Assembly (NCBI GenBank): GCA_030386875.1
Contig: CM059567.1
Span: forward strand, 55,660,020 to 55,724,019
Direction: 5' to 3'
Source: Morinoia aosen
Taxonomy: Eukaryota > Arthropoda > Malacostraca > Amphipoda > Talitridae
DNA length: 64,000 nt
Below the pieces are notes generated by a model. The model worked only from the letters and a program-made list of their open reading frames with translations. It was not told the origin of the DNA and made no database searches. Below, piece after piece: positions 3,491-46,165 of the stretch. Made by a program: the position numbers and the translations under genes. Every line of letters begins with the position of its first letter. Position 1 is the stretch's first letter.

Positions 3491-4317
3491 TAACTCAAAT
3501 GGGTCAAAAATTTCTGAGTCATTCTATGGAAGTTTCATTTTATTTTTACAATTTAATTTATTTTTTAGCATTTAATATGAACGTACAGAAGAGTGAACCA
3601 GACCAGATGTAGCTTTTATGCCAGATAATGTTTTGGCACCTAAATAAAGGGTAGAGGTTGTGCTCATCAAAATAACCTATATCTTGTAAATTGATGCTCT
3701 GCAATTAAATTTATAAGTTTTTAATATGAAAAAAATCAATAAAAAAATTTAATGAGTCTTTATGGAAAAATATACTCAAGTGAATGCATTAACATAGTGC
3801 TCAATTAAATTGGCAAGTTCCTCTAAATTGATGGCTTGCAAGATTTTTTGTATCTAATTTGCAAATTACAGTGGTTAATTTATGGAAAAGACATGAATTT
3901 GATGAGTATTGGAGAAGTGCACCTCCACTGTGTAAATAGCATGGCCCTGGAGGAGGGATACTACTAGGGGACCTCAGCTATTGATAGGCTTTTGCAATTT
4001 CTGTCTATCTTGACCATTTGTTTATATAAATTATAATGCCTTCACTGATGTCTCACAACATAATTCCATGTTTCCTCTTCCATCCTAAATTGGAGTTTTT
4101 ATACACATTGTAACTCGTCTAGAAATCCATCTTACTCATTGATTTTTAATTTTTTGTAGTCCCTTCTCATTGTCCTTTAGATCATCTATAACTTGGCAGC
4201 TTCCCATGTCTTGAAGTTGTAGAATAATTATACATAATTTAATTTGAATTATATAAAGAAAGTTTTCATTTTAGTACATGTAGAGAAATGGTCTTGCTAA
4301 GTTAGATAATCTTCTAG

Positions 4318-5222
4318 ATTTCATCACTATCATAACTGATTTTGAAGTTTTCATTACTATCATAACTGATTTTGAAGTTTTCATCACTATCATAACTGAT
4401 TTTGAAGTTTTCATCACTATCATAACTGATTTTGAAGTTTTCATTACCATCATAACTGATATTAAAGTTTTCATTACTATCATAACTGATTTTGAAGTTT
4501 TCATCACTATCATAACTGATTTTGAAGTTTTCATCACTATCATAACTGATTTTGAAGTTTTCATCTCTATCACAACTGATTTTGAAGTTTTCATCACTAT
4601 CATTACTGATTTTGAAGTTTTCATCACTATCATAACTGATTTTGAAGTTTTCATCACTATCATAACTGATTTTGAAGTTTTTATCACTATCATAACTGAT
4701 TTTGAAGTTTTCATCATTTGATCATAACTGATTTTGAAGTTTTCATCACTATCATAACTGATTTTGAAGTTTTCATCACTATCATAACTGATTTTGAAGT
4801 TTTCATTACTATCATAACTGATTTTGAAGTTTTCATTACTATCATAACTGATTTTGAAGTTTTCATCACTATCATAACTGATTTTGAAGTTTTCATTACT
4901 ATCATAACTGATTTTGAAGTTTTCATTACTATCATAACTGATTTTGAAGTTTTCATCACTATCATAACTGATTTTGAAGTTTTCATTACTATCATAACTG
5001 ATTTTGAAGTTTTCATTACTATCATAACTGATTTTGAAGTTTTCATCACCAGCATAACTGATTTTGAAGTTTTCATCACCAGCATAACTGATTTTGAAGT
5101 TTTCATCACCAGCATAACTGATTTTGAAGTTTTCATCACCAGCATAACTGATTTTGAAGTTTTCATCACCAGCATAACTGATTTTGAAGTTTTCATCACC
5201 AGCATAACTGATTTCGAAGTTG
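4318..5222. repeat. 30-bp minisatellite, ~30 copies, upstream of B3GLCT exon 1
   Basis: The unit contains CATAACTGATTTTGAAGTTT followed by a variable TCATCACTAT-type decamer. Thirty bases is ten codons, so stop-free frames of about 150-175 codons arise on both strands; these are periodicity artefacts. A phase slip occurs near 4711-4722. The last six units (5041-5218) share a CACCAGC variant absent from the rest. Confidence 0.97.
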
Positions 5223-5780
5223 ATATTCCAATGAAAATTGGAAGTTGATTATTTGAGGAGTTGAAAATTGGAAGTCAAAGTTGATATTGTATTTATGCCA
5301 GGTATGTTGTGGTTGACCTTTTTAAGCCAGATTTGGAAATTTTTCTATTAATTTTAGGTATTTTTTCCCAAAAGTTATTAACATATCATTGGCAACCTAG
5401 GTAAAAATATTTCTATCTCAAAATATATGTGAATTCTCCTGTGAAATAATTTTTTCTTGAGATACAAATTGTGACAGAAGGCACTGCTGTGATGAATTTG
5501 AAATGAATTGCTGTGGTTGCTGTGTAATGAATATTGCTCATTTACCTGCAATGAGTCTTTGTTACTTTTTTTTTGTCCTTATATAGAATAAGGTTCATGC
5601 TTATTTCATTTCTCATTATTTTTAAAATTAAGCAAGAAGGCATAACGGTCAGTGAAAAATATCATTTTTTTTTCAATATCTTCAATCTATCTTTTACTGT
5701 GTCTATTATACCATGATTTGAAGCAGTGTGAAAAATTGATGAATTTTAGTCACTAATCAATGTTTTTTTTTTTTTTCAGG

Positions 5781-11800: not shown

Positions 11801-14800
11801 CAGTGTCATCTTCCTAATTAGGCTGTACTTACATGTGATTTTCCATCAATTTCATATACTCATTTAACTCTTAACTGATAAATTCATTCCTGAAATGTAC
11901 TCACGTATAACTGTTCCAGCGAGGGTCTTCATTCATTGGTCGCAGTCTCCATGACGTCGAGAGCAGCGTCATCCACCACTACGCTGCTCCAGGCGCCTTG
12001 CCTCACTACCCTGAGCTCAGAGCAGGCTTTGTGCTGTCTGGCGAGGCGGTCCAGAGGTAATGCTCCTACTACCTCATTATCTGGGATTCTAATTATTATT
12101 ACCCCTCAGTAGGATACAACTATTGTATCAATCGGAATTAGCACTCCCAAGAGGAAAGTGTGTGAGGGACTGAGCTGAGGTTAGGTAGGCCCTCTTTTTT
12201 GTTGAAATATAATTTTTTCATGTTAAGGACCATGTTTTTTTGGTTTACTGCTGTCCTGTTTTTCAGCACGTACTGCAGTGATTGCTCGTTTATTGCAATT
12301 GGTCGGTTCCGAGACCGGCCGCGATAACTGAATTCCGGCGAAGCAGAGACAGCATATTAACTGAATTTATTTAACATGTATTTGGACTTTTAAACCATCC
12401 CTGTTCTGTTAACAACCCACTGTTTACAGTACTCCATTAATAATATTAATAATAGGGACTACTGTTCAGCAATAACATGTAAGAAATAATGATGATGAAG
12501 CTGATGATGACTTTTATTCGCAGTCAATGAATGGTATTTTATGCGGAAACTCTGCAAAAATCTTTCCATATACATATTTTAGAAACCGCGAAGTCGTGAA
12601 TCCGCGATAGTCGAACTTCGAAGTAGCAGGAAAATACTGTACTTTCTGCTTCAACTTCTATCTTGTTTCATAAACTTCTTTTCAACTTACTGTTTCTATG
12701 CCCCTACTACATTGATTTTGCATTCCCTTATCTCCATACTTAATGATGCCTTCCTCTGTGTGATATGCTCTTTTATTTGTAGTGGTTGGTGAGGCTTACC
12801 CTAACATTCAATCTAGTTATTATTATCATTACGAGTCCACCCCTCTTTATTTGAAATGAAAAGAATGTGAATAATGAAGCCAAGTCCGGAAGAAAAAAAA
12901 TAATTTCTCTAAAGAGAAAGAACAACCAAAATGTGGTTCTAGTATCTGTGTCAACTGCACCATGAGAGTACTGCCATAATCTACTTGTAGTGCATTCTAT
13001 ACCTAGTGTGGAATTAGGTCAAATTATTCACTGTTGTCTAATGTTTACTGCTCAGTTTCTGCATTCTTGTATAGCTTGGAAATGCCTATGATTTCAGAGC
13101 TGCTGTCAAGTATGATCCAGTGGCCATCGCTTCAGACAACCAGTTTGCCATTGACGTTGGCTACGAGTTTGCTTTGTGGCTGACAAAGAACTGTGGAATT
13201 GTCCTAGACCACAGCGACGCGTTTTGTGTGCTGGATGCTCTGGAGGACGTCGACGTGGAAGGCTGTGCTGTCGTGGCCGGCCCCCCACGAGTTTGTGACC
13301 TCACGCAACGTGAGTGAAGTTTTGTTTTTACCTCTTTGACTGTGACGAGTAAAATTGATGTTTAATATTCAATCCGAATTTTAAAGTCAATCGTAGTAAG
13401 CAATGTTGAAAATATCCAACATTAACTGGATTGTGTTTTCATTTGGTTTTGATCAGGTATTTTTTTAAATTTAATTTGTGTCTACTAGTTGGTCAACAGC
13501 ATAATGAAAACTCTCTCAGTGACCAAATATTGATCACGTCGTAGTCAGAGTGTTAGATTTTTCTCATGGAAATACACTACTGTATTGACCGGAATTAGCA
13601 ATCCCTTGGGGAAAATGTGAGGTATCAAGCTAGGGATTAGTTAGGCTATTTGTTAAAACATGTTTTTTCTTGTTCTGTTACAGACCAACATTTCTTGGTT
13701 TGCTACAGTTCTGTTTTTCCTGCTCCTATTACTTACTTCTTCAACTTTTATCTTGTTTCATAAACTTCCTTCCTAACTTGCTGTTTAAATGCACAAGAGA
13801 TCCTGCGTGAGAACTCATCCTATGCTCAAATTTTCCGTTTCCTTAACTTCATACGCAATGATACCTTAGTTGTGTCGATACCTTTATTATATGATTATGC
13901 ACCTTTTGTAATTAAGCCTAATATTTTGAAATTAGTTCTACTATGCTATATTATACGTATTTTGTTGTACTTTTGAGTTAAGGTAAAATGAAATACTGTA
14001 AATGTGACCTGGAACGAAATGCATGTATTTTTTTTAATTGAAAAAAAATTGTTGTTAGGAGCAGCATTTCTGATACTACTTTATTTTTCTTAAGTTTCAC
14101 CTTAATTACCAACTTGTCTTGGCATACAGACAGCACTTCAATTCTTTGTTATGATGACAGAGCCTTGGAAGTGAAAGAATCCTTTTCTGGAAATAATACA
14201 TTTAACTCCCAACATTTCTTCTATTGAAGAAAAGTGCCCCAGTTTGCATTTACATTTTAATTAGTACTCAAAAGCTCTTCCGTGGCCGAGTGGTTAAGAA
14301 CGCGCCCTTAACGCGTTGGGGAAAAGAACTCGGCCACAATTCCCCATTCTACCCAGGTGTCGGAAATGGGTACTGGCTTGTCCTGGGGTTAACCATCATT
14401 GCGTTCTGGTGTTAGTTATAAGGGTACGGCCAGACTGAACGCGTTGGCGCTGACGCGCGCGTACGCAGGCAGAAGCTGCAATATTAAATACATGTGTTGC
14501 TCCGAGAGCGGCCATACTAGACGCGCGCGGACGCAGGCAGACCAAAGCGCACAGACGCCGCGTCGCGCTGTCAAAATTCAGGATTACTTGAGAGAAATAT
14601 TTGACGCTGCGCGGCGCGTACAGTGTGTCTCGAGCAGCCGTGAGTGGAGGATGTGGAGTTGCTACTCCCTTCCATTCAGGCTGTGCATGCAATGTGGGAT
14701 GCTTTTCACCCTCTGCACAGTGACAGGGTGTTCATTAGCGACCAGTGGTCGATGATTGCGGACTCACTACAAGTTTCAGGTGAGAGTTGTAGCTGCGTTC

Positions 14801-17800: not shown

Positions 17801-20800
17801 TTATTTTTTCAAGTCCTCATTATTTTTTACAGTCTTCGTTATTTTTTCAAGTCCTCATTATTTTTTCAAGTCCTCATTATTTTTTTCAAGTCCTCATTAT
17901 TTTTTCAAGTCCTCATTATTTTTTTCAAGTCCTCATTTTTTTCTTGTCCTCAGGTTATTTTTTTCAAGTTCTCATTAGTTTTTCAAGTCCTCGTCAGCTT
18001 TTTCAAGTCCTCGTCAATTTTTTCAAGTCCTCGTGAGTTTTTTCAAGTCCTCGTGAGTTTTTTCAAGTCCTTGTGAGTTTTTTCAAGTCCTTGTGAGTTT
18101 TTTCAAGTCCTCGTAAGTTTTTTCAAGTCCTCATGAGTTTTTTCAAGTCCTCATTATTTTTTTCAAGTCCTAGTTATTTTTCTCAAGTCCTCATTATTTG
18201 TTTCAAGTCCTCATTATTTTTTTCAAGTCCTAGTTATTTTTCTCAAATCCTAGTTATTTTTCTCAAATCCTAGTTATTTTTCTCAAGTCCTAGTTATTTT
18301 TCTCAAGTCCTAGTTATTTTTTTCGAGTCCTCATTATTTTTTTCTAGTCCTCATTATTTTTTTCAAGTCCTCATTATTTTTTTCAAGTCCTCATTATTTT
18401 TTTCAAGTCCTCATTTTTTTCAAGTCCTCATTATTTTTTTCAAGTCCTCATTATTTTTTTCAAGTCCTCATTATTTTTTTCGAGTCCTCATTATTTTTTT
18501 CAAGTCCTCATTATTTTTTTCAAGTCCTCATTATTTTTTTCAAGTCCTCATTATTTTTTTCAAGTCCTCATTATTTTTTTCAAGTCCTCTCTATTTTTTT
18601 CAAGTCCTCTCTATTTTTTTCAAGTCCTCGCTATTTTTTTTCAAGTCCTCGCTATTTTTTTCAAGTCCTCGCTATTTTTTTTCAAGTCCTCGCTATTTTT
18701 TTCAAGTCCTCGCTATTTTTTTTTAGAGTCCTCGCTATTTTTTTTGAGTCCTCGCTATTTTTTTTGAGTCCTCGCTATTTTTTCGAGTCCTCGCTATTTT
18801 TTTTCAAGTCCTCGCTATTTTTTCAAGTCCTCACTATTTTTTTATCAAGTCCTCACTATTTTTTTTCGAGTCCTCGCTACTTTTTTTTCAAGTCCTCGCT
18901 ATTTTTTTTTTCAAGTCCTCGCTATTTTTTTTCAAGTCCTCGCTATTGTTTTTTTCAAGTCCTCGCTATTGTTTTTTTCAAGTCCTCGCTAATTTTTTTT
19001 CAAGTCCTCGCTATTTTTTTTCCTCAAGTCCTCGCTATTTTTTTTTTCAAGTCCTCATTATTTTTTTCTCAAGTCCTCGCTATTGCTTTCAAGTCCTCGC
19101 TATTGCTTTCAAGTCCTCATTATTTTTTTTCAAGTCCTGTGCTCATCAATTTAAATCATTCCACATTGTCATTTTTTTTATCATTGCATGCTTAACATCC
19201 ATGTGTTCACAATTGAAATCTCCTGACCTACATTTACAAAAATAGAAATCAAGGCAAATTCACTTAAATTAGAAATATAAGTATTTTACTGTATCTGATT
19301 ATATAAATACATTGTAGACCAACCAGGTATAGTCCTATAGAAATGTTTTATATGGAACTTCTACTTAGTTCTTCCCAGTAAACTCCTCAACTTTAATCCA
19401 GGAAGTGGTACCAAAGTAACATTTTATGCTGAATTTCTTTCATGGCATAACCAAATTATTCAACTAGACGCCAAAGAAAATGTTAACGTTGGTAAATAAG
19501 ACTTGAATTGCAAAATTATTTGCATTTATGTAGTACAAGATTAGCTTAAATCCAAGCTCTTAGATTTCAGTTTTTAGCGTTAGTTCAAAGTAACAAAATA
19601 GAACTATCATAAGAAGAGTAACATGGCCTAGGTCTCTCTTGCCGCTTCCAGTGACGACGGCTATGAAACCTGTCTTTATTGTACTGAAAATTTTTACAAA
19701 AATCTGCTCTCACGTCATATTTTACTTGCTAGTTTTCCTTGAAGTGTATTGTCATAGTTACTTTTCCGGGAGGTATAAGATTAAGTCTTTACAGTATTCA
19801 ATCTTAAAGTTAGGAGCCCATGCTCGTCTTCCATTAAAGATATGTGAAAATTTTACCGTACGATTGATTTATAAGTTGTGTCTTCATCCTGGGATATCGA
19901 TATAGAAAATTATAGGTGGAGACAGGGGAAGGAAAAAAAACTCTCAGGATAGAAGATATTTGAAAATCGTTTCGTATATTATAAAATGTGCATGCTTAGC
20001 AATCCCAATAAAACTAGGAGTTTATTTTTGGCATTCAATGCATCCTAAATTTTTATTCTATTTTATTTTATGATAACTATTCACGGCATATTTTATTTCT
20101 TTGTGCGTCGTAACCTGTTCAACTTGACGGTCAAATGACCTTCAGACAATTTCCTCGTCATCACTGCCTTGTGTCCTCTCTTATCAATTCCAATCATTCT
20201 TACCACGCTTTCCAAGCATCTATTACATCTCCAATCCCTACAATAATCTCATGGCTAGAACCGTTAATATTTGATTTTCTTACACACCGGATCATTAACC
20301 AATGGGAACTGATTCATCCATTATCCTCTTCAGTGCATTGAAAATGTCAACCGAGGGCTAGAATACCCATGTGTACAGAATCATTTTTATTTAAATTTAG
20401 CTTGCTGTCATCAAAAACTCTTTCATAATCTTTAGCGCTGGAAAGTAACCGCTTTTCTTATTTTTCATTTAATCATTACCTGTGTTAGCAACTTTCCAAA
20501 GACTTCTTGAGAATTATCTGATTGTCTTGTTTGGGTGTTAAATTCATTCTTTAAACTTCCTTCACTTGCAGGTTTTCTTGTAGTTACAGGTGTTTTGTTT
20601 TACTTTATTTTGAGAGACGTCAAGTGAATACAACTCACTACGGTGCTAGTATTGCTCTGATTGACCGCTTGTAAACACTTGCGTAAACGAGTATTTAATT
20701 CACATCATAGAATGAAGTTGCTCTACTCTTTGGTGTAACTGCAAAAACTGTTTAAAGGCATTTCCTAGTGCGAAATTTTAAAAAAATATTTCCTGCTATG

Positions 20801-26936: not shown

Positions 26937-27591
26937 TCATACGTCACATTCTGTCCTCACCTTCTTTACCTTTTTCTTCTTTTTACGATTTGAAGAATCT
27001 TGCGAATCATCAACACTTCTTGAATTTACTGATATTGAACAATTGGTCTCGCTAATCAAACTTTCATCTTTGTCTCCAATTTTGTTATCAAATGAATTTT
27101 CACTTTCTGGGTTACAAGATTTTATTTCCTTTCCCGTGTTTTCCAATGTAGTAAGAAGGTTTTCATCGCGTTGTTCACGATGTTTTCTCTTTTTCTTCTT
27201 AGGCTTCTCACAAGCTGAATCATTGGCCCCTTCAAAAGATAATTCTTTGTTTCTTTTTGCGCCGAAAAGCATAAACTCATTTTCTTCCTCATCTTCGCGT
27301 TCGCGAATGATACCGGCGATCTCAGCGTTTCTTCTGTCTTTTTTATTTTTTTTCTTCTTCTTCTTAGAGCTATGCAAATCGTTGTATTGGTAAGCTATGA
27401 CGGCTTTAGTTGCAGAGGTACGATCCTTCCACAGTTTAGTAGGCATGGTGGCCAGTACAGCGATGGGGCTCTTGGCCGCTTGGCTCTCCTCTTCTTTGCG
27501 CTTCCACTCTGCCACAAGTGATGCGTCATCTTTTGCCATTGCCTCCAATCGTTGCATTTTGGCCGTCATTCGAATCCCGTGCCGAGCGCCC
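26937..27591 (-). CDS. GPATCH4: GPATCH4-like terminal exon 5 (lysine-rich tail)
   Basis: Acceptor ttccag. It completes TAHKGARHG, then AKMQRLEAM, followed by about 190 residues of low-complexity tail with several poly-lysine and acidic stretches, stopping at TGA (26939-26937). The lysine runs are nucleolar/nuclear localisation-like. Composition rather than residue identity is conserved in this family's tail. Confidence 0.92.
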
Positions 27592-30500: not shown

Positions 30501-33500
30501 ATCCTACAAAAGAAACACAATGTTAAGGCAAACATAAATCACTAAACATACTAAGATATTTGTAATAAATAAGATTTGTACACATCGATGGCGAAAATCA
30601 GTAATGAAACCAATGAGATGAAATACTACCAACAGATTCAACAGTATTAATCTATAATATAAATTTCTGAATATGTGTCTATTCAATGCGGATTTCAATA
30701 GCAACAAAGACCACTTCAACAAGGGAAAAAAAATGAAGTTGAAAAGTTTTGATGACACGGTAGATTTTAGATGCATTAGATAAAGACCTTTTCTTCGACG
30801 TAGAGAAAAGAAAATAAAGCTAACTGAACTTCAAAACTAAGCACACTCCTTCAACAAACTTTTTACTCTGTGATGAATAGCAAAGAAATAAATGATGAAC
30901 GTTTATAGAGCAAGGCCTACCAAGGGAAGCTTGAAAACTTTATATGGCCTAAGGAGTAGAAAAAGCTAAGAGTTCATTGATGATGATGATGATGATTATC
31001 CTGCAACAACAGAAAAATCTTCATAAAAAACTCTTTATTGAAGATCAAATTTCTTACACAGGTAATTGGTTTTAAAAATAATGAAAATTAGCACTCAAAG
31101 AATATTGCAATTTCACACGACTGGCTGTCATGGAATATTGAATACTTTCATTAGACTTCAATAAGAAAAATAGGATGTTTAGTGATAAATTTATGACTTA
31201 AGCATTACTTTTAGTGGAGTGTAGAAGGAACCTGGTGTGCTTAAACCATTAAAATCAACCTAATTTTGAATTTTCTGAAACTAGAGATCATCTTACAAGA
31301 TCAAATTTCATCTTACAAGTTTCAATCTTATCTTACAAGTTTCAATCTTATCTTACAAGTTTCAATCTTATCTTACAAGTTTCAATCTTATCTTACAAGT
31401 TTCAACCTTATCTTACAAGTTTCAATCTTATCTTACAAGTTTCAATCTTATCTTACAAGTTTCAATCTTATCTTACAAGTTTCAATCTTATCTTACAAGT
31501 TTCAATCTCATCTTACAAGTTTCAATCTTATCTTACAAGTTTCAATCTCATCTTACAAGTTTCAATCTTATCTTACAAGTTTCAATCTTATCTTACAAGT
31601 TTCTTCAATCTTATCTTACAAGTTTCAATCTTAGCTTACAAGTTTCAATCTTAGCTTACAAGTTTCAATCTTAGCTTACAAGTTTCAATCTTAGCTTACA
31701 AGTTTCAATCTTAGCTTACAAGTTTCAATCTTAGCTTACAAGTTTCAATCTTAGCTTACAAGTTTCAATCTTATCTTACAAGTTTCAATCTTAGCTTACA
31801 AGTTTCAATCTTAGCTTACAAGTTTCAATCTTAGCTTACAAGTTTCGATCCTTTAAGTTTCAATGATAGTGCTGAAAGTTTTCATAGCTCAATAAAATTG
31901 AAACTTGAGGGCTAGAGGAACAACATGACTTAGTTTTCACAAACTGAAATTAAACATAAAGCAGAAAGAGCATCATTCTGATGTATGCTTATACAGCCTG
32001 GGAAAGTGGAGCTGCTCTGATTCCAAGGTGTCATAGATTAGATTATTAGTTAGTTTTAAGCTTCCCTTTCCACCACAAAAGCAATCCAAAGAGAGGAAGG
32101 AGAAAGGCACCATTTAGTATGGAGTTGAGGCAACACGGAATCTATGCAGAAAGGGCATGGAAATGGTAATTTAAGAAAGAATATTATGAAACAAGATCAA
32201 AGTCGAAGAAGAAAGTAGTAGGTGCTGGATAACAGGACAGCTGTGAACCAAAAAAAAAAAAGATGGTTCTTAACATAACAAAAACATTTTATTTCAGCGA
32301 AAAGATGGCCTACCTAACTCTCAGCTTAGGCCCTCACACATTTTCCTCCTGGGAGTGCTAATTCCCATTGATACAATAGTTGTATCCCCCTGAAGGGTTC
32401 AAAAGTGATGTAACAAAACTCACCTTAGGTGACTAGTAACATCAAATTCTCTGTATATGCAGTATTCTGAACCCAGCAAATTAAGCATTGTACTTGCATG
32501 CAATAAAGAATTTCCTTGTCCATGAATATATTCACATGCTGCACTAATTATTTACAATAACTTCACATAGAAACAAAATGATCTCACAGTTTCATGTGTC
32601 CATTTAGATGAACAGCCTAAACAATGAGTGATTGCTGAAAAGTGTTGCACAATTAACAAGACTAGCCTAAATAGTATGCATTTCAATTACACAGTGCGCA
32701 ATAAGCTCCATGAGACATTTTGTAAATCTGAAGGATATGACAGTAATCGATTTTGTAAGTTTTAACGCCTAAACATAGTTAATTTAATCAAAATGAACAA
32801 GTTTTCTTCTATGCATTTTCTGTCTTAAATGAGTATTTTATTTTAGTTATAGCGGTAAATGACTTGCCGCAACTCCAGTGTTTGAAGCGGAAAGAAATTC
32901 ATCGATCGCGCGATATGGCCGAGCTTTGCTTTCTACACGTTCGTCATCAAAGATGAAAACCTACAAGACCTACCGCTGTACCTCGTTAAATACTCATTTG
33001 ACAAAAAAAGTGTATGGAAGAAAAGTTGTTTATTTCGATGTTATAATCATGATTCAAGCAACAAAAATTCGAAAATCGATGAGTAGCCGTTTATTCAAGC
33101 GCATTCGTCATCAAAGACAAAACTAAACCTACCGCTATAACTCGTAATATAATCATTTCAGACGGAAAGTGCATAGAAGAAAACTTGTTTCTTTTGACTT
33201 AATTAATGATGTTTAGGCACCAAAACGTGAGAATTCGATTACTATCATACCCTTCAGATTTACCATACATTTAATGTGGTAAAATATCAAAATTTATACC
33301 TGAATTCAACTTTAAGTTACAGAGGATGTGGTGTAATTTTTGAAACATTAGGACAGTTGATTTTTCAATTGAAAACTGTGGTGTTCAACAAAACATTGCT
33401 GATATTGGTACCAAGTTAAGCACTGAGAACTCATAGAAAATTGATGACCAGGGATGAATGCATCTAAAGTCAACACAAGCACTCTGTAATTATTCAAGTA

Positions 33501-35566
33501 TCTTTGGCTCAGTGTTTCACGGAACTAGCTTTAACAGATTAGTTTATTTTATTATTAGTCAGATTAGTCTAAATTAATACCAATGAGAAAGCCTTTACTA
33601 TGACTAGGCAATTGACTGGAGAGCAAGGTTTCCACTTGCATGGCTCCTGCTCAAATGAGTGGAAAAAAAAGTTGCCATCAGAAACTGCTGAGGCATTTGT
33701 AAAATCTTACCATGAACCCAAAGAACTTTCAAAAAGGAAATGCTGGCACAAAATCCTATTGATATACAATTATTCAATTTATACATACAGAGCATTCAAA
33801 TTAACTTTTTAACCATCACAATGAGTACATCATGTGCATTTTTTATAAATGAATATTCTAAATTGAACAATAAACAAAGTAATGTGAACTACACAACATA
33901 GATGTCTTATTAACAGATCTGATGCACTCACTTTGGCAGTTACAACAGTGAGTTTGTTTACAGCGTTGTTGTAAGCATTGTCCCACCAGTGAGAAAAATC
34001 TTCCTTTGCATCATGCCCAATGCCACTCTTGTCAGCACGCACTTTCACACGTAGAGGCTCGGCAATTCCATCATTCAAACGACCAAGGCCCATTCCTGGT
34101 AAAAATATTAGGACTGAAAACTTGTTGACACAAAATACATGATAGAACTATGAGAAAATAACTTGAAATGCCTTAACTTAGTGTTGCACTATGAGCTAAA
34201 CAATGGAATTATTTTGAAAATACATAAATTAAATATAGTACCTTCATTCACATTTGCAACACATTCTAACCTGCTTATACACAGTGTGCAAGTTCAGTAT
34301 GGTGGGAATGTCCAGTTCAAGTGTTCATGTTCATCTCAAAGAAAAACTTCCTTGTAAATCTACCGTAAAACTTTTATTCTATTTCAACAAAAGACCAACC
34401 TACTACTGAGAACACAATCTAACATTTTCCTACCTGAGAGTGTCGATTTCCATAAATCCTTCCCAGAGGGGATAAAACTCAACATCAAAGTATTATAAAT
34501 ATTAATCACATAATGATGTTTGACTGTGCTATGTAACATACTGATACATAGCAGGATACCATAGGGTGATCTTTGAAGTTGCAGTAAACATGCAAGGATA
34601 CATATTGCAAGTGAATATAAGTGCTTTTACTGCTCATGATCATTGAGTTCTCTCAACTTATGAAATGTAAATTTTTGCATCAAAAAGTATACAATTACAT
34701 TCCAGTCAAACGTTTACAACAAACATATGAATGTAAATTAAATTACTGAATTCATATTATTCAGTGCACTATTTTATTCATAGAATGTACAGTTATTTCC
34801 ATAGAAAGACTTTCATAGTTATTTTCTAAATTAACATTTGCATTAAACATATAAATTAAGCAATTATATTATATACACAGAGGTAAGTTTTAAGGTGTCG
34901 TAAATGTATACTGGCTATTACCAGCTTGAATTTTAACACGTTGACTGCAATAGGTTAAGCTAAAGTTCAGTATTCAACTCAAATTTAAATTAAAAAGTTG
35001 TTAGAAATTTTATAAATACCAAACATTAACTGGGTTCTCATTAAATACTATTAATTTGAAAAGATTGGTAAAAATTTTTCAACCGACACATTAATGGGCC
35101 GTATTCCTGTAGGAAAAACTTTAGCACAACCCAACGAAAGGTTGTATCGCAGTCAATGTTAAAATGCAAGCATTAGTATATTTTACATTCTGTTAAATGT
35201 AATTTCAATAAATGTACTCTTGAGTTGAAGCAAAATTAATTAAAATGGGAAACATATTCCAATAAAACATTCTTTCAAATATACATAAACATGCCTTTCT
35301 TTTGGAAGCATTCAATTTTATGGAAATGGCTCACTGATAAACCTGAGATAAATGTGTGCATAAATAACAAGATCACAGTAACTTCTGCAATTAATTGTTA
35401 ATGATATAAGATGCATAATAAAACTGTTTTTAGAATAATCCAAGAAATAAATTTCAGCAACCTATATTAATAAAAGAATTATTAATGAATTAAACTCACC
35501 TTTCTTCCAGCCATATTTAGCTAATTGTCTTTCAGCAAATGACTTGCTGGCATCTGATTCAGCCAT
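26937..35566 (-). CDS. GPATCH4: G-patch domain protein 4-like (5 coding exons, complete)
   Basis: By family, GPATCH4 is a nucleolar G-patch protein; G-patch domains bind and stimulate DEAH-box helicases of the DHX15 type in RNA processing. Exons in transcript order: 35566-35500, 34095-33932, 30503-30414, 29835-29672, 27591-26937. All junctions are GT-AG and in phase, giving 379 aa. Visible features: N-terminal G-patch (about residues 10-60) with KYGWKKGMGLGR and glycines in the expected spacing; SHWWDNAYNNAVNKL (human HWWNELFNKTA); DDQLFKLCGGATAHKGARHG (human ELFKACGG.TAHKAARLG), then AKMQRLE; and a C-terminal third with repeated lysine runs typical of nucleolar proteins. It is convergent with B3GLCT. 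A 5' UTR intron is likely because an acceptor-like ttacag lies just upstream of the ATG. Confidence 0.92.
27592..29671. other. GPATCH4-like intron 4: no recognised element
   Basis: AT-rich, with many short A-runs. A TATATATA-rich stretch lies near 28975-29010, next to a short GC hairpin-like CCCCGGAGGAGTCGGGG at about 29022. No gene or repeat family recognised. Confidence 0.5.
29672..29835 (-). CDS. GPATCH4: GPATCH4-like coding exon 4
   Basis: Acceptor ttttgcag, donor gtaact. It encodes a serine/glutamate-rich linker, then LLLDMSDDQLFKLCGGATAH, the conserved ELF.ACGG.TAHK block. The final lysine codon is completed by exon 5 (phase 2). Confidence 0.92.
30414..30503 (-). CDS. GPATCH4: GPATCH4-like coding exon 3
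   Basis: Acceptor ttttgtag, donor gtattc, 90 bp and phase 0 at both ends. It encodes a basic segment ending SLLYNNFCQ, comparable to the LYGNFVK segment of vertebrate GPATCH4. Confidence 0.85.
31288..31848 (+). repeat. 20-bp minisatellite, ~28 copies, GPATCH4-like intron 2
   Basis: Unit TCAATCTTATCTTACAAGTT. Units from 31288 to about 31625 mostly carry TTATC; units after 31630 nearly all carry TTAGC, with one TTATC unit near 31772. One unit has a 3-bp TTC insertion near 31604. The open frame across it is a periodicity artefact. Confidence 0.97.
32028..32400 (-). repeat. Interspersed repeat family A, copy 8 (full length, reversed)
   Basis: The best-preserved reversed copy. From its 3' end: ATTATTAGTTAGTTTTAAGC, AAAGGCACCATTTAGTATGG, AGGACAGCTGTGAACC, GGCCTACCTAACTCTCAGC, GATACAATAGTTGTATC. 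It lies in GPATCH4-like intron 2. Confidence 0.82.
32721..33264. mobile_element. Long-inverted-repeat element family L, copy 1 (544 bp)
   Basis: The outer ends are inverted copies (AAATCTGAAGGATATGACAG and, complemented, AAATCTGAAGGGTATGATAG). Arms of about 130 bp carry AGTTATAGCGGTA and TTCTATGCA-type blocks, and the right arm is duplicated internally (about 32985-33090). Flanks AGACATTT (32713-32720) and ATACATTT (33265-33272) match 7 of 8, read as an 8-bp target duplication. No coding capacity. Confidence 0.8.
33932..34095 (-). CDS. GPATCH4: GPATCH4-like coding exon 2 (G-patch core)
   Basis: Acceptor taccag, donor gtgagt. It encodes MGLGRLNDGIAEPLRVKV, KSGIGHDA and SHWWDNAYN, the core and C-terminal part of the G-patch plus the WW-containing extension seen in GPATCH4. 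Phase 1 in, phase 0 out. Confidence 0.93.
34937..35158. mobile_element. TTAA-flanked MITE (family B, copy 3), 222 bp
   Basis: TTAA at 34933-34936 and 35159-35162. Inverted ends CACGTTGACTGC and GCAGTCAATG. The interior CAAACATTAACTGGGTTCTC links it to family B copies at 13333 and 22103. Non-autonomous piggyBac-type element inferred. In GPATCH4-like intron 1. Confidence 0.72.
35500..35566 (-). CDS. GPATCH4: GPATCH4-like coding exon 1
   Basis: The ATG on the - strand starts at 35566. The exon encodes 22 residues ending in RQLAKYGWKK, the start of the G-patch, then one base before donor gtgagt. The acceptor-like ttacag about 20 bp upstream of the ATG suggests the transcript has a separate 5' UTR exon above 35.6 kb. 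Confidence 0.9.
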
Positions 35567-35881
35567 GACAGTTTAGAACTCAAAAAAATCTGTAACAATA
35601 CAAAATAGTTACATTTTATAAGCTCAATGATAGCAAAAACTGTATAAAAGCAGTGATTTATGAAGATGTAAATTTCATAAATTGACTGGCATAAAGAAGC
35701 ATAATGTATTCTGGATGCTCCATCACAATAGATACTTATCTTTATTCTTATCCAATTTAGGACATATTGGTCAGTTTGATGAGCAATATTTCAACAATCA
35801 AAGTACATCAATTTGATTTTCTCTATACCATCATTGTTGTGCAGGCAAAAAATAACCTTAATATGACACAAAAAAAAATTG

Positions 35882-36428
35882 GATAAATGTGAAGCGTTTG
35901 CCAGCAATCGATTTTTCAGTTTTTGATGCCTAAATATAGCTAATTAGATCAAAATAAACAACTTGTCTTCAATGCACTTTCCGTCGGAAATGAGTATTTT
36001 AAAAGTTATAGCGGTAAATTATTTACCGCAACACCAGTGTTCAAAGCGTGAAGTAATTCATCGAGCATTTCGGACGGCAACACTGCAATGGAGTCTTGTT
36101 TGCGACGCACTTGTCATCAAAGACAAAACTAAACCTACCGCTCTAACACGTAAAATACTCATATGCCGCAAAATGTGTATAGAAGAAAAGTAGTTTGTTT
36201 CGGTGTTATTACCGTGATTAAAGCAACAAAAATTTGAAAATTGATCAGTAGCTGTTTATTCAATCGCATTCTTCATCAAAGACGAAAATTAACATACCGC
36301 TATAACTTTTAAAAACTCATTTCTGATAAAAAGTGCATAGAAGAAAACTTGTTTATGTCGATTTAATTAACTATGTTCAGGCACCAAAAACTTGAAAATT
36401 AATTACTGGCAAACGCTTCACTTTCACC
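35882..36428. mobile_element. Long-inverted-repeat element family L, copy 2 (547 bp)
   Basis: Ends GATAAATGTGAAGCGTTTGC and, complemented, GTGAAAGTGAAGCGTTTGCC. Arms share GCACTTTCCGTCGGAAATGA and AGTTATAGCGGTAAAT with the other copies and, as in copy 1, a second right-arm segment lies inside. Flanks AAAAATTG (35874-35881) and AATAATTG (36429-36436) match 7 of 8. It lies just upstream of the GPATCH4-like start. Confidence 0.8.
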
Positions 36429-36515
36429 AATAATTGAAATGCGGAATATACAACCTAGCCCCAAAGCTTGATCAGATTGGGCCTAAATGGTTATTGTTGC
36501 AATTTCTTTGCTTAA

Positions 36516-38515
36516 CCCTTTACGCCCGAGTGTGACGAATTCGTCACACAAGAAGTACGAGCTTCTCACGTAGTAAATTACAAACAGAGCTTCTTGCAAA
36601 CGAATGTGCAGACGCAGGTACATGTCCTCTCCAGGCTGAGTAGTGTGTTGTGTCAGTTTTGCGCGCGCTACCTCAGTTGATAAACAAACTTTGCGAGGGG
36701 GTGACGTGTGGTTCGCACCGCTCCTACTGGCTATATAAAAAAACGTTATGGATGAAATCTCAGGTAAGTTTCATGCGTGTAAAAATTTTTGAATGTTAAG
36801 TAGCGTCTGTACAATACGTTTATCAAAGGAAAATGGAATTTAAAGAGTTAGAAAGAATAAAATATTGAGTTACATCAGTGTGACGATTTCGTCACATCAG
36901 GGACACAAAGCATGTTTTGTTGCTACTGTGTTTGCATGGCAAGCGAAGAATGTTGGCAAACCTTCCTCTTTTATAATGCCAGTACCGTCTTAGATGCTAG
37001 TCCAATTTAATATATATGTTATTTACTCCTTGTTAAAGATGAAAATATAATTAAAAATTACAATAAAATGAAATAATGCGACTTTATGAAAAGAGTGATT
37101 GAGTACTACTGTTCATTTATATAAATTGACGTTATGTTCTATTATACGAGCGTTTGTTTTTTACAGGATCATTTTTCTCACCAAGATTATTCTATGGCAA
37201 CAAGAACAACCGTGATAGAAAAGTTATTTTTGCAAGTGATAAATCGAAGAATTAGATGAAGATGACGTTGTAGATCCTGACTAAATTATTGCTGAATCCG
37301 ACAAGGACGCGGAAAAAAGTACGTTGCTAATCAGTGTTTAGAGAAATATTTGTAATAAATGCCTTCATAAAAATGTATTTTCTTGACAAATTGCCAATTT
37401 TCTATTCTAACTTCACGTTAGATACGTTGTATTTTATTTCAGATTTGAACGGGCAATTGACGTCGACGATCCATCAGAAATTATCGAAAATTCAGCAGTT
37501 GGGATTGAGATCACAGCATCTGCTTCTAGAGAAAGCAGACCACAACCGCGCACTCGTCGGCGCCAGTAATTACATCATAAACGATGGCTCTGTAAGGACC
37601 TGACATAATGGATAACGAAGATATTCTTTTCCCTGCAATATTACAAGCAATTATTATCAGATTTCACTGATCCAGTAGTTCGTGAAATCAAAAATTGAAA
37701 ATAACCTCAACAAACCTCTGAATGTGACCAACTAAGAGCTGAAACAGTGATTTGGGCTTGCATGTTACATCGTTTTGAGTCTAAGAGCAAGACCACTATT
37801 GGAGCACTATTGCCTGACATTGGGGAGGACATTGCACCCAGAATTGCTGAAACGAGAAACAAATGCAAGAAAGAGCACTGCATTGGAAGAACTATTTACT
37901 ATAAGAAATGTAATGCAAGCCTATGTCTCATTGCTAAATCAAACATGTTTGAATCTTATCATGAGTAGTATGAGAAAAAAATTGTAGGTAAAATGTACCA
38001 ATGTTTGTTACTAGGCTTGTACCCAGTAGTGCAGCCAGGGAGGGGGGCCACTGGGGCCATAGTCCCCCCCCCACCCCCCAAATTTTGAGTTGGGAGCCAG
38101 TTTCAGTTTCTCTTTAAGTAAAACAATAAAAACAATAAATAAGATTGCTGATAATTGATGGCTGCCGCTCATCCCCCTTCCCTATCCCCGAAATTATATG
38201 TCGGGGATCCTGCATCCCCCCCCTTCCCCAAAATTTTTGCCTGAGGATGTGTTTTAAGATTTACAGTAAATAAAATGATAGCAACGTGTGAAATAGGTCA
38301 AAAATACTATTCAATAAAGAATTTGAAGTTATTTCCTTGTATAACTTATGCACCTTAGCTCGCGGATGTGACGAATTCGTCACAAATTTTTTTTTTTCAA
38401 AAAAATAATTTTGGGCAATTTCAATGCATCTTGTGCTTCCAGTACACCTTTCTGTCATAAATAGAACAAAAATTATTTTTTTAGATGCTTGAAAGATAAT
38501 TCAGGGCGTAAAGGG
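36516..38515 (+). mobile_element. Degenerate piggyBac-like transposon, 2000 bp
   Basis: TTAA at 36512-36515 and 38516-38519. Termini CCCTTTACGCCC and GGGCGTAAAGGG are perfect inverted repeats. The 18-bp palindrome TGTGACGAATTCGTCACA lies near both ends (36531-36548, 38367-38384), with a one-base variant at 36879-36896. A TATATAA box (about 36733) is followed by ATGGATGAAATCTCAG and a gtaagt donor, a plausible first exon. A SINE-like C-rich patch lies near 38040-38095. Confidence 0.85.
36749..37985 (+). pseudogene. Relic of a piggyBac-like transposase
   Basis: After the short ATG exon, 37169-37320 shows an acidic stretch (ELDEDDVVDPD, IIAESDKD) broken by a frame change and a stop. After a second acceptor, 37442-37565 encodes FERAIDVDDPSEIIEN and a basic RTRRRQ end. 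This matches the acidic N-terminal region of piggyBac transposases. A later segment (about 37740-37985) has an LLEHYCLTLGRTL-like pattern that could be C-terminal. The catalytic DDD core is not present, so the element is internally deleted. Confidence 0.6.
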
Positions 38516-38622
38516 TTAATTGCCACATTTTAGGCAGAAGAATTCCATTACAAAATCATTTCAACATCATTACAAAGAACAACATTGCCATGAAAAAGCC
38601 ATGAATAATAATATCTAAATTT

Positions 38623-40843
38623 GGTAAATGTTGAGGACTTGACCATATTTGATTTTCTAATTTTGGATGCCTAAATATTGTTAATGAGATCAAAATGAAT
38701 AAGTTTTCATCAATGCACTTTCCGTCAGAAATGAGTATTTTAGAAGTTACAGCGGTGAATGAGTTACCGGAACTCCAGTGTTTGAGGCGGGAAAAAATAT
38801 ACCGCGCGGTCTGGCGTGAAAGTAAACAGGCGTTGCCGCGCGCCAACCAAGCCGACTTTGCCATAACTCCACTGTTTGAGGCGGGAAAAAATAAATAAGA
38901 GAAGCAAGCCCCCTATTACAAGCGTAAAGAGGTTGGGTCGTGAGGGGTAGCCACAGTTCTTCTAGTGAAAATTATAAATTAAGGTTGGAACCGACCCATT
39001 ACGTCGAATGACCGAGTGTGTGCAAGCGCGCCGAAACACATGTAGCCATCACCGCTGCTTTGACGTAACTGGCAGCCTTGAGATGACCGCAAGTCCGTAA
39101 CTTCAACGCCGGTATGTTGTAGGTTCGACGTATCATAGAACATTCGAATTAAGTCATTCGGGTCGACAATATAACTTGTCATCTCATTATCTATGTTAAG
39201 GGGAATATCCCGGGCCCTTGCCAGATCCTGTCGATCTCATGGTCATTTTGCATGTTTTTCTTGGAGAAGGACCCTTAGTTGGTGGACTATTCATTCCTAA
39301 AATTTTATGGCACTACGACAATAATTCCCCCCCTCCCGGGGGAGGTGAGGGGACCAAAATTTTTCAATTTTTTCCGATTTTGATATTATATAAAAAGAGA
39401 ACAAATGGGAAATGGAAAAAAAGCCTAATTTGAGTTTGTTAGAAATGTGTCAGGGATTCTAAAACTGCATTTGTTTTTGTTCTAGCATCAAAACTGAAGG
39501 AGGAGTTCCATTTTGAAATATCGAAATCAATGAAAAGCACTCAAAATTTTCAAATTTTTCCTGATTTTGACCCCATATATAAAGAGAACAAATGGGAAAT
39601 GAAAAAAATTGAATTTGAGTGTGTTAGAAATGTTTCAAGGATTTTAAAGCTGTCTTTGCTTTTGTTCTAGCATCAAAACTGAAGGAGGAGTCCCATTTTG
39701 AAATATCAATATTAGTGAAATATCAATACCTAAAAAACCTATGTCAAATTTTTGCAAAATCTAAGGCCTGAATCAAAAAAATGAATGGAATCAATTGTGT
39801 TTCTTTTCAAAGGGGGCATATCATAGTCAAATTTTATAAGAATCAGACTGAAAATGAAAAAAATTCATTTTTTTGAAGAAAATAAAAAAATTTTATTATT
39901 ATTTTTTTTTTTAAATCACAATTCACAGTTTGGATATGAAGTTATATATGGAAAGTATCGAAATAAAAATTAAAACTGCATTCAATTACATCAATTGTTC
40001 ATTATATTACACTTCAACCAAAAATTTTGTTATGGCTTACACCCAAAAAAAATAATTTTCAACATTCAAAACAAAACTTGTCCTCGAGTTTTGATGCTAG
40101 AACAAATCCAAAGACAGTTTTAGAATCCTTGGAACATTTCTAACAAACTAAAATACGGCTTTTTTCAAATTCAAATTCTTTGAAGAAATATATAGCTCTA
40201 AACTCAAATAATTGTTGCTGATTTTTGAAATTTAAAAAAAATTTAAAAAAAAATTTGGAAAAAAATAGAAAAAATTTGAATTTGAAAAAAAGCTGAACTT
40301 TAGTTTGTTAGAAATGTTTCAAGGGTTCTAAAACTGTCTTTGTTTTTGTTCTAGCATCAAAACTGAAGGAGGAGTTTCAATCTGAAATATCAATAAAAAT
40401 ATACCAAAAAACACATTTTTCGTAAAAAAAAAAACAAATAAGGCCTAAATTGAAAAAATGACAGGAGTAAAAAAGGTTTACTTTCACAAAAGACATATAC
40501 TGGCCAATTTTCAAACGAATCGGACAAAAAAAGGCAAGATCTTGGGATATTCCCCTTAATGCATACCAGAATTTTACTTTATTTATAATTTTCACTAAAA
40601 TAACTGTGGCTACCCCTCACGACCCAACCTCTTTACGTTTGTAATAGGGTGATGCTTCCCTTATTTATTTATTCCCGCCTCAAACACTGGAGTTCCGGTA
40701 ACTCATATACCGCTATAACTTTTAAAATACTCATTTCCAACAGAAAAAGAATTGAAGAAAACTTGTTTCTTTTGATCTCATTAACAATATTTAGGCATCA
40801 AAAATTCAGAAATCAATTATGGTCAAGTCCTCAACATTTATCC
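38623..40843. mobile_element. Long-inverted-repeat element family L, copy 3 (2221 bp, with nested element)
   Basis: Ends GTAAATGTTGAGGACTTGAC and, complemented, ATAAATGTTGAGGACTTGAC. Flanks are CTAAATTT at 38615-38622 and 40844-40851, a perfect 8-bp duplication. Arms of about 370 bp contain the family AGTTACAGCGGTGAATGAG-type block plus a ~95-bp core (GTAAAGAGGTTGGGTCGTGA) present in both arms (38909-39000 and, inverted, about 40565-40650). Without the nested TTAA element it would be about 0.86 kb. Confidence 0.82.
39200..40555. mobile_element. TTAA-flanked non-autonomous element nested in family L copy 3
   Basis: TTAA at 39196-39199 and 40556-40559. Ends GGGGAATATCCCGGG and, complemented, GGGGAATATCCCAAG, with CTTGCC shared further in. 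The interior holds four ~130-150-bp related segments around GTTCTAGCATCAAAACTGAA. These lie near 39350-39530, 39550-39715 and 40262-40395 in direct orientation, and near 40085-40250 inverted. No transposase reading frame seen. Confidence 0.78.
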
Positions 40844-40851
40844 TAAATTTC

Positions 40852-44562: not shown

Positions 44563-46165
44563 CCTATTTTTATCGAGAGTTCACAGTCTAGTAAACTCCC
44601 AGAAACAGATAATGATTCTGGTACGAGAAGCTCCTGCTTCCACAAGTTGAAACGAAATAAATGTACACAAGGAGTTCCGAGACTCGAACTCAGGACTTAG
44701 AAATTACCGCGCCGGCACGCTACCAACTGAGCTATCGATCACCCTAAAAGGTGACCGAAGCCCAACGATAGCAATGCTTGGCCCAGTGCAGGTACGTGCT
44801 GTCCCGACATATATTTTACTCCCTATTTTTTATCGAGAGTTCACAGTCTAGTAAACTCCCAGAAACAGATAATGATTCTGGTACGAGAAGCTGCTGCTTC
44901 CACAAGTTGAAACGAAATAAATGTACACAAGGAGTTCCGAGACTCGAACTCAGGACTTAGAAATTACCGCGCCGGCACGCTACCGACTGAGCTATCGATC
45001 ACCCTAAAAGGTGACCGAAGCCCAACGATAGCAATGCTTGGCCCAGTGCAGGTACGTGCTGTCCCGACATATATTTTACTCCCTATTTTTTATCGAGAGT
45101 TCACAGTCTAGTAAACTCCCAGAAACAGATAATGATTCTGGTACGAGAAGCTGCTGCTTCCACAAGTTGAAACGAAATAAATGTACACAAGGAGTTCCGA
45201 GACTCGAACTCAGGACTTAGAAATTACCGCGCCGGCACGCTACCGACTGAGCTATCGATCACCCTAAAAGGTGACCGAAGCCCAACGATAGCAATGCTTG
45301 GCCCAGTGCAGGTACGTGCTGTCCCGACATATATTTTACTCCCTATTTTTTATCGAGAGTTCACAGTCTAGTAAACTCCCAGAAACAGATAATGATTCTG
45401 GTACGAGAAGCTGCTGCTTCCACAAGTTGAAACGAAATAAATGTACACAAGGAGTTCCGAGACTCGAACTCAGGACTTAGAAATTACCGCGCCGGCACGC
45501 TACCGACTGAGCTATCGATCACCCTAAAAGGTGACCGAAGCCCAACGATAGCAATGCTTGGCCCAGTGCAGGTACGTGCTGTCCCGACATATATTTTACT
45601 CCCTATTTTTTATCGAGAGTTCACAGTCTAGTAAACTCCCAGAAACAGATAATGATTCTGGTACGAGAAGCTGCTGCTTCCACAAGTTGAAACGAAATAA
45701 ATGTACACAAGGAGTTCCGAGACTCGAACTCAGGACTTAGAAATTACCGCGCCGGCACGCTACCGACTGAGCTATCGATAGCTCAAAAGCATTGCTATCG
45801 TTGGGCTTCGGTCACCTTTTAGGGTGATCGATAGCTCAGTCGGTAGCGTGCCGGCGCGGTAATTTCTAAGTCCTGAGTTCGAGTCTCGGAACTCCTTGTG
45901 TACATTTATTTCGTTTCAACTTGTGGAAGCAGCAGCTTCTCGTACCAGAATCATTATCTGTTTCTGGGAGTTTACTAGACTGTGAACTCTCGATAAAAAA
46001 TAGGGAGTAAAATATATGTCGGGACAGCACGTACCTGCACTGGGCCAAGCATTGCTATCGTTGGGCTTCGGTCACCTTTTAGGGTGATCGATAGCTCAGT
46101 CGGTAGCGTGCCGGCGCGGTAATTTCTAAGTCCTGAGTTCGAGTCTCGGAACTCCTTGTGTACAT
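44563..46165. repeat. Tandem and inverted array of 260-bp tRNA-derived units
   Basis: About 4.7 direct 260-bp units (spacing exact: equivalent points at 44778, 45038, 45298, 45558) are followed from about 45775 by about 1.5 units in inverted orientation, the junction being a GAGCTATCGATAGCTC palindrome. Each unit contains, on the - strand in the direct part, a tRNA-like segment. That segment has A box ATAGCTCAGTCGGTAG and T-arm/B box CTGAGTTCGAGTCTCGG. Units are nearly identical, with differences seen only in the first. CAATGAATGCAC flanks the whole array (44551-44562, 46166-46177). Confidence 0.93.
45826..45898 (+). other. tRNA-like segment (pseudo-tRNA/SINE head), one of about six
   Basis: This is the + strand tRNA-like part of the first inverted unit. 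The T arm folds with a 5-bp stem around TTCGAGT. The D arm (GCTC..GTAGCGT) is imperfect and the acceptor ends pair poorly, so I read it as tRNA-derived rather than a working tRNA. Equivalent segments recur every 260 bp on the - strand at about 44687-44747, 44947-45007 and so on. Confidence 0.65.

Follow-up and report, generated by a model that had tools for sequence, protein, structure and literature searches.

Merlin transposons have ends that begin with 5'-GG, inverted repeats of 24-462 bp, target duplications of 8-9 bp and a DDE_Tnp_IS1595 transposase, and the single genome of Monocercomonoides is described as holding seven or more Merlin families that differ in their inverted repeats (PMC8101967). 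In Anopheles gambiae, P elements and their miniature inverted-repeat transposable elements (MITEs) form subfamilies that have their own inverted repeats, 8-bp duplications and, in most cases, matching MITEs (PMC1562414). Galileo, a member of the P superfamily in Drosophila, has long inverted repeats and coexisting subfamilies, and the tree of its inverted repeats agrees with that of its transposases (PMC4168063). Here we analyse three long-inverted-repeat elements in a 64,000-nucleotide stretch of the amphipod Morinoia aosen (assembly GCA_030386875.1, contig CM059567.1, positions 55,660,020 to 55,724,019; the window), each of which has its own pair of matching ends. We interpret them as MITEs, hence non-autonomous, that belong to three subfamilies within a single, very large family of Merlin elements (IS1016/IS1595-type), and give this reading a probability of about 0.92.

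The family resembles the Merlin elements described in its 5'-GG ends, 8-bp duplications, inverted-repeat size and a DDE_Tnp_IS1595 transposase without Zn_Tnp_IS1595, but differs from those accounts in having seven end clusters built on one framework around a 16-bp zone, with ends that number thousands. With the P elements and P-MITEs of Anopheles it shares the coexistence in one genome of subfamilies that each carry their own ends and 8-bp duplications. It belongs, however, to another superfamily, and whereas one Anopheles P-MITE combines the ends of two subfamilies (PMC1562414), 53 of 55 elements here are concordant. The likeness to Galileo lies in long inverted repeats, coexisting subfamilies and ends that track the transposase; the difference is that Galileo ends are reported to be more conserved than the rest of the element (PMC4168063), while here positions 8-23 are less conserved than the body in subfamilies 1 and 2. 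The observation that called attention to these repeats is correct and its core is ordinary: this is a known kind of element, not a new one.

Results

The original prediction, made from the sequence of the window, had described three long-inverted-repeat elements with shared inner arms and 8-bp flanking duplications (7/8, 7/8 and 8/8 matches), and all three are present. Copy 1 (32721..33264, 544 bp), which we assign to subfamily 1 as a non-autonomous Merlin element (consensus end GGTAAATCTGAAGGATATGACAGTAATCGATTT), is flanked by AGACATTT on the left (32713..32720) and ATACATTT on the right (33265..33272), a 7/8 match. Copy 2 (35882..36428, 547 bp), assigned as a Merlin MITE to subfamily 2 (consensus end GGTAAATGTGAAGCGTTTGCCAGTAATCGATTT), lies between AAAAATTG (35874..35881) and AATAATTG (36429..36436), which also match at 7/8 positions. 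Copy 3 (38623..40842), a Merlin element of subfamily 3 (consensus end GGTAAATGTTGAGGACTTGACCATAATTGATTT), has CTAAATTT on both sides (38615..38622 and 40843..40850, an 8/8 match). Its predicted left end stands, but the right end had been placed at 40843 and the 8/8 duplication requires 40842, one base further in. Copy 3 owes its excess length to a TTAA-flanked element nested inside it (39196..40559; TTAAGGGGAATATCCC...GGGATATTCCCCTTAA, terminal inverted repeat GGGGAATATCCC, with internal repeats), and with this set aside its length of ~860 bp matches an 859-bp class found elsewhere in the genome. An inner arm of copy 3 on the plus strand (38911..38983, beginning CCCTATTACAA) is mirrored on the minus strand at 40577..40649 (95%), and a similar inner repeat was seen by eye in the Merlin element L105, whose transposase gene is described below.

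As predicted, the outer ends are mirrored within copies and differ between them. Over the outer 28 bp, left and right are identical at 25/28, 23/28 and 26/27 positions within copies 1, 2 and 3, against 16-21 of 27-28 in 12 comparisons between copies. The inner arms (the next ~92 bp) lack this contrast, with 73/92, 73/92 and 77/91 identical positions within copies and 67-79 of 91-92 between. The further claim that the outermost ~25 bp differ between copies holds for positions 8-23 and fails for positions 1-7 and 24-33, which form a common framework: the ends read GGTAAAT, then 16 variable bases, then TAAT(C/T)GATTT. Positions 1-7 (consensus GGTAAAT) are common to the three subfamilies, as are positions 24-33 (TAATCGATTT) save for one C/T. 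Subfamily-specific bases are confined to positions 8-23 and are identical at both ends of each consensus, reading CTGAAGGATATGACAG in subfamily 1, GTGAAGCGTTTGCCAG in subfamily 2 and GGTAAATGTTGAGGACTTGACCA in subfamily 3; additional end types include GGTAAATGTGTAGCGTTTGTCAG, GGTAAATGTCAAGGAGAGGACCA, GGTCAATATTGAATTTAATGTTG and GGTAAATATTGAGGATTAACTGG. Both consensus ends of each subfamily are identical over 33 bp, and the arms of subfamilies 1 and 2 can be aligned to ~140 bp. These two subfamilies differ at 5/16 positions of the variable zone, compared with ~12% over the whole consensus elements (88% identical, gaps omitted). The inverted repeats of subfamilies 1-3 lie within the 24-462 bp of Merlin elements, and their consensus sequences start with GGTAAAT, or GGTCAAT in two other lineages, which agrees with the 5'-GG of Merlin; decayed single copies vary.

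The repeat family is far more abundant than expected by chance. Searching the genome (1.99 Gb in 29 contigs) gave 7,338, 6,789 and 4,297 first-look candidates for copies 1, 2 and 3, of which 40 were scored for each. The 39 other scored relatives of copy 1 (88-91% identity) all start between query bases 1 and 4, and 38 run to base 542-544 of 544. Those of copy 2 are mostly full length at 83-89% identity, and for the left arm of copy 3 (39 others, 94-96% identity) all but one begin at base 1, the exception being at base 5. A 35-base inner-arm pattern occurs at 12,114 places with up to 2 mismatches (reversed control, 0), the generic end pattern GGTAAAT-N16-TAATYGATTT at 8,243 exact places (control, 3) and the consensus end of copy 1 at 321 exact places (control, 0).

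Loci similar to copies 1 and 2 were picked by similarity, which inflates types 1 and 2 and includes some segmental duplicates, while loci fetched with the inner-arm pattern were chosen regardless of their ends. We examined 28 subfamily-1 and 30 subfamily-2 loci that had not been selected on target duplication. Both ends carry at least 13/16 of the consensus variable bases in 25/28 subfamily-1 loci, the other 3/28 having one such end, and in 25/30 subfamily-2 loci. Target duplications match at 7-8 of 8 positions in 23/28 (8/8 in 16, 7/8 in 7) and 20/30 (8/8 in 14, 7/8 in 6), respectively. Two subfamily-2 misfits, L055 and L058, have a slightly different variable zone, yet it is again alike at both ends. 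Four subfamily-2 loci (L040, L041, L046 and L047) have the target duplication GGCTTCAA in common, with one side of L046 one base off, and are probably segmental duplicates rather than separate insertions.

Ends were then paired by a 7-8/8 duplication together with the generic end pattern, which is blind to the variable zone. The initial 82 pairs were reduced to 55 elements by dropping one spurious pair (1,579 bp, in L035) and near-identical copies that shared a target duplication. The left end shares its cluster with the right end in 53/55 elements, compared with a shuffle mean of 15.1 and a maximum of 26 in 5,000 shuffles; among elements retrieved through the inner arm rather than the end, the figure is 20/22. 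Seven end clusters contain both left and right members. The two discordant elements, L071 and L083, resemble, by eye, related types that have decayed or shifted, and the ends of L071 appear displaced by small insertions or deletions. Identity within versus between copies is 0.948 versus 0.939 at positions 1-7, 0.91 versus 0.638 at positions 8-23 and 0.895 versus 0.855 at positions 24-33. Twelve extra loci lie outside the 55. Three of them (L090, L094 and L096; zones alike at 16, 16 and 14 of 16) joined the subfamily 3 consensus set, L100 adds another matched pair with GGTCAAT-type ends (15/16), and L092 is a candidate pair (duplication 6/8, zone 12/16); seven showed no credible end pair in the short stretch read.

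A tree of element bodies was built from 40/55 elements with 34 bp trimmed from each end, 14 having been excluded for length and L030 (GGTCAAT type) having no body match. All 24 type-1 rows fall to one side of a single branch (100/99), and all 12 type-2 rows to one side of a different branch (96/94); the two type-4 rows do not group together. We looked among these 40 bodies for swapping of ends and saw none for types 1 and 2. In this sample, much of which was retrieved for its likeness to copies 1 and 2 and so favours clean groups, the two large types have ends that track descent.

Element boundaries were checked by joining the flanks of 79 insertions, with one duplication retained, and comparing them with the fetched loci. 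Something matched across the junction in 19/79. Eight of these (5 separate sites) gave ungapped matches that were at least 90% identical and 150 bases or longer, as in L062 against L104 (97.5% over 200 bases), L075 against L077 (95.5% over 200) and L016 against L036 (93.3% over 193), and the boundaries of those elements are therefore right. The other 60 found no spanning match among the fetched loci and are uninformative either way. In L072 and L073 a type-1 element has inserted in the arm of another family member, and the joined flanks restore the usual arm sequence. Members of the family are nested in each other in L072, L073 and L104, where one target duplication, GAAATGAG, comes from the family's own arm. 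The original prediction had proposed a comparison of termini across the genome, in which conserved termini would indicate ordinary subfamilies; this is what we found.

We next consider the transposase. The genome holds 101 hits to Merlin-type genes (PF12762), many with open frames of 300-446 aa. Flanks were read for 22 of them, showing both ends in 4, only the 3' end in 6 and no end within the stretch read in 12. The element L105:516-2704 is bounded on either side by ATAATTTT (an 8/8 duplication), and its two ends both read GGTAAATGTAAAGGACTTGACCATAATTGATATT (34/34). Its 381-aa frame matches PF12762 at 8.1e-15, and its arm is 86.7% like that of copy 3 over 241 bp. The ends of L106:537-2428 and L107:211-3057 are GGTCAATATTGAATATAATGTTG or nearly so, and the end of L108:979-3099 is GGTCAATATGAAGCGTGATGC; the L106 frame matches PF12762 at 4.4e-15. 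Left-right identity in L105, L106, L107 and L108 is 34, 31, 32 and 33 of 34, with duplications of 8/8, 7/8, 8/8 and 8/8. The autonomous-type relatives that the original prediction had suggested looking for are present, as DDE_Tnp_IS1595 frames between matching ends. Absence of a Zn_Tnp_IS1595 domain separates Merlin/IS1016 from other IS1595 elements, and in the L105 and L106 proteins PF12762 is the sole Pfam family at E up to 0.001, with no Zn_Tnp_IS1595. Four other frames from fetched loci gave Pfam matches below the cut-offs or none, and inspection by eye of the frames of at least 60 aa in the seven elements of more than 1 kb among the 55 revealed no transposase. Nested in one Merlin element (L107:846-1526) is a 227-aa frame that by eye resembles a mariner transposase.

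Further genes link the transposase to the end types of the window copies. The 3' end of the L113 Merlin element equals that of copy 3 over the variable zone (arm 91%), and the 3' ends of L110 and L119 are variant end types. In L122, L124 and L125 the 3' end zone, GGTAAATCTGAAGGA(C/G)TTGACAG, is 14/16 like that of copy 1 and 11/16 like that of copy 3 where compared, and the arms are 84% like those of copy 1. The claim that the ends fit no superfamily clearly does not hold, as 5'-GG, 8-bp duplications and long inverted repeats are those of Merlin and genes with such ends are present in the genome. The block IERLW/IEKLW, which we take for the putative third catalytic residue, has E in the frames of L104, L106, L107 and L108 and K in L105 (by eye). 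We make no claim that any Merlin copy seen is active.

The target duplications were also compared with those of hAT elements, which have the form nTnnnnAn. Among 63 distinct duplications read in both directions, a partly selected set since pairs were admitted only at 7-8/8 with recognisable ends, position 2 is A at 0.57 and T at 0.29, position 7 is T at 0.57 and A at 0.29, and the left half is A-rich and the right half T-rich. This composition does not conform to the hAT form.

Ends and transposases diverge together. Relative to the L105 transposase, amino-acid identity is 84% in L110, 79% in L113, 75% in L119 and 71-73% in L122, L124 and L125, falling to 46% in L108, 44% in L106 and 43% in L107. 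Identity of the 16-bp zone to that of L105 is 12 of 16 in L110, 14 in L113, 8 in L119, 11-12 in L122, L124 and L125, 6 in L108 and 3 in both L106 and L107. With L105 as reference, the two measures give a Spearman coefficient of 0.76 over nine loci. The transposase lineages are 43-95% identical among the five compared.

Differences between the consensus sequences of subfamilies 1-3 are mirrored at both ends in 20/20 cases at positions 8-23 and 2/2 at positions 24-33 (22/22 in positions 1-33). Further in, the proportion is 3/23 at positions 34-46 and 10/30 at positions 47-115 (13/53 in positions 34-115), a contrast with Fisher p ~3e-10 in which the three pairwise comparisons share lineages. Full mirroring of positions 1-33 is mildly unusual, and the matched outer ~33 bp has a size that would suit a putative transposase-binding end. 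Private changes of single copies behave otherwise. Measured against the subfamily consensus over the terminal 33 bp of 45 copies, they number 133, of which 24 form 12 mirrored pairs and 109 are one-sided. This one-sided decay of single copies therefore speaks against a continuing homogenisation by fold-back.

Discussion

The original prediction had left two alternatives, and subfamilies with co-evolved ends is the one supported by the genome-wide loci, end pairing, body tree, mirrored consensus differences and transposase comparison. Most likely, each subfamily has its own matched end pair because one mobilising enzyme has to work with both ends. This enzyme would be a Merlin transposase that is provided in trans, binds the last ~33 bp at either end and moves the element by cut and paste. 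With both ends required to fit one protein, new subfamilies would be founded by elements whose two ends had changed together. After insertion the two ends of a copy would decay mostly independently, while selection for ends suiting one transposase would act on active source elements. The Merlin reading settles what this abundant repeat family is, and the seemingly copy-specific symmetric ends become subfamily ends.

Several observations weigh against this interpretation. No transposase gene with the end of copy 2 was found among the 22/101 Merlin hits with flanks read, 12 of which showed no end, and L110, L113, L119, L122, L124 and L125 are known from the 3' end alone. The L113 gene holds three TGA and two TAA codons inside its match and is a broken copy, and the K in the IERLW/IEKLW block may have left the L105 transposase inactive. 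The nine loci in the correlation are kin, which makes its p-value of 0.017 optimistic. Duplications matching at 7-8 of 8 positions were lacking in 5/28 subfamily-1 and 10/30 subfamily-2 loci. One Merlin family is reported to have two strongly unequal ends (PMC8101967), which speaks against a strict need for matched ends. Finally, mirrored private pairs exceed the shuffled expectation in each subfamily (3 vs 0.75, 5 vs 0.9 and 4 vs 1.5; 12 vs ~3 overall), these counts being reached in 27, 9 and 121 of 2,000 shuffles. Nested sub-subfamilies could explain the excess, as could rare conversion.

How the paired changes arose is a separate matter, on which concerted evolution in active master copies is compatible with the Merlin subfamily reading. 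While an element transposed or a gap was repaired, conversion or template switching from one end to the other would create the mirrored changes, which would then spread as a subfamily. The 22/22 mirrored differences in positions 1-33 are in its favour; to reach each of them through two matching substitutions that arose independently, and with no intermediate, looks costly. However, the same pattern with the same boundary is also expected if selection acts on a binding site common to both ends, so that the two are indistinguishable here, and the lineages shared by the three comparisons reduce the weight of the count. We consider this origin a real possibility, though not the one we would expect.

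A broader proposal combines several such elements. Positions 8-23 would be a replaceable recognition code in which transposase lineages and both element ends change together, possibly as an escape from the burden of non-autonomous copies in their thousands. Active master copies would have both ends rewritten in a single conversion-like step, and a shared body plan would have radiated within one genome into at least seven distinct end codes. Taken as a whole this is speculative, and we think it somewhat unlikely. The genome nevertheless offers a natural series of transposase lineages with matched end types, together with thousands of fossil ends, and could be used to study the joint change of a transposon's two ends and to ask whether it is driven by MITE load.

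The second alternative left by the original prediction was homogenisation within each copy, in which the arms fold back and pair and gene conversion keeps the ends copy-specific. Mirrored private changes do lie above the shuffle level in three subfamilies, and conversion between the two ends of one element has been inferred for a bacterial insertion sequence (PMC3004938). As the main or a continuing process it is nonetheless unsupported and, in our view, very improbable: 109/133 private changes are one-sided, the ends are specific to subfamilies rather than copies, and only 13/53 differences in positions 34-115 are mirrored, although conversion of whole arms would mirror these too.

Unrelated transposons that captured a common internal sequence, their end pairs coming from different superfamilies, might account for a variable zone that differs more between subfamilies 1 and 2 (5/16) than whole elements do (~12%), but GGTAAAT, TAAT(C/T)GATTT, 8-bp duplications and alignable arms are common to the three subfamilies, and Merlin transposases accompany both the end type of copy 3 and one 14/16 like that of copy 1; this common framework and common transposase superfamily rule it out for practical purposes. 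Mutator-like elements (MULEs), which have 8-10 bp duplications and were tried first because they also have long inverted repeats, are represented by 87 transposase domain hits in the genome, but are disfavoured to the point of being scarcely credible, as transposase with ends was found for Merlin instead and 3/87 MULE loci read (5.1 kb each, stretches that may end before the element ends) show neither these ends nor long inverted repeats.

Other features of the window

None of the three copies has a TTAA target duplication, as piggyBac elements would; all are of 8 bp, and the TTAA elements in the window are insertions separate from them. One of these, a TTAA-flanked piggyBac-like element (TTAACCCTTTACGCCC...GGGCGTAAAGGGTTAA) with short reading frames only, lies between copies 2 and 3 at 36512-38519.

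By eye, the stretches at 26937-27569 and ~33930-35570 on the minus strand may be pieces of one host gene, whose N-terminus would be G-patch-like and whose tail would be lysine-rich; if they belong to one gene, copy 1 lies between its pieces. Tandem repeats of 260 bp followed by an inverted copy occupy 44567-46165, with arms of 348-379 bp that are 99-100% complementary. Minisatellites with 20-bp units (CAAGTCCTCATTATTTTTTT-like, plus a second unit) lie at 17818-18860 and 31161-31950, and a 30-bp minisatellite at 4159-5330 is open on both strands, encoding MKTSKSVMIV repeats.

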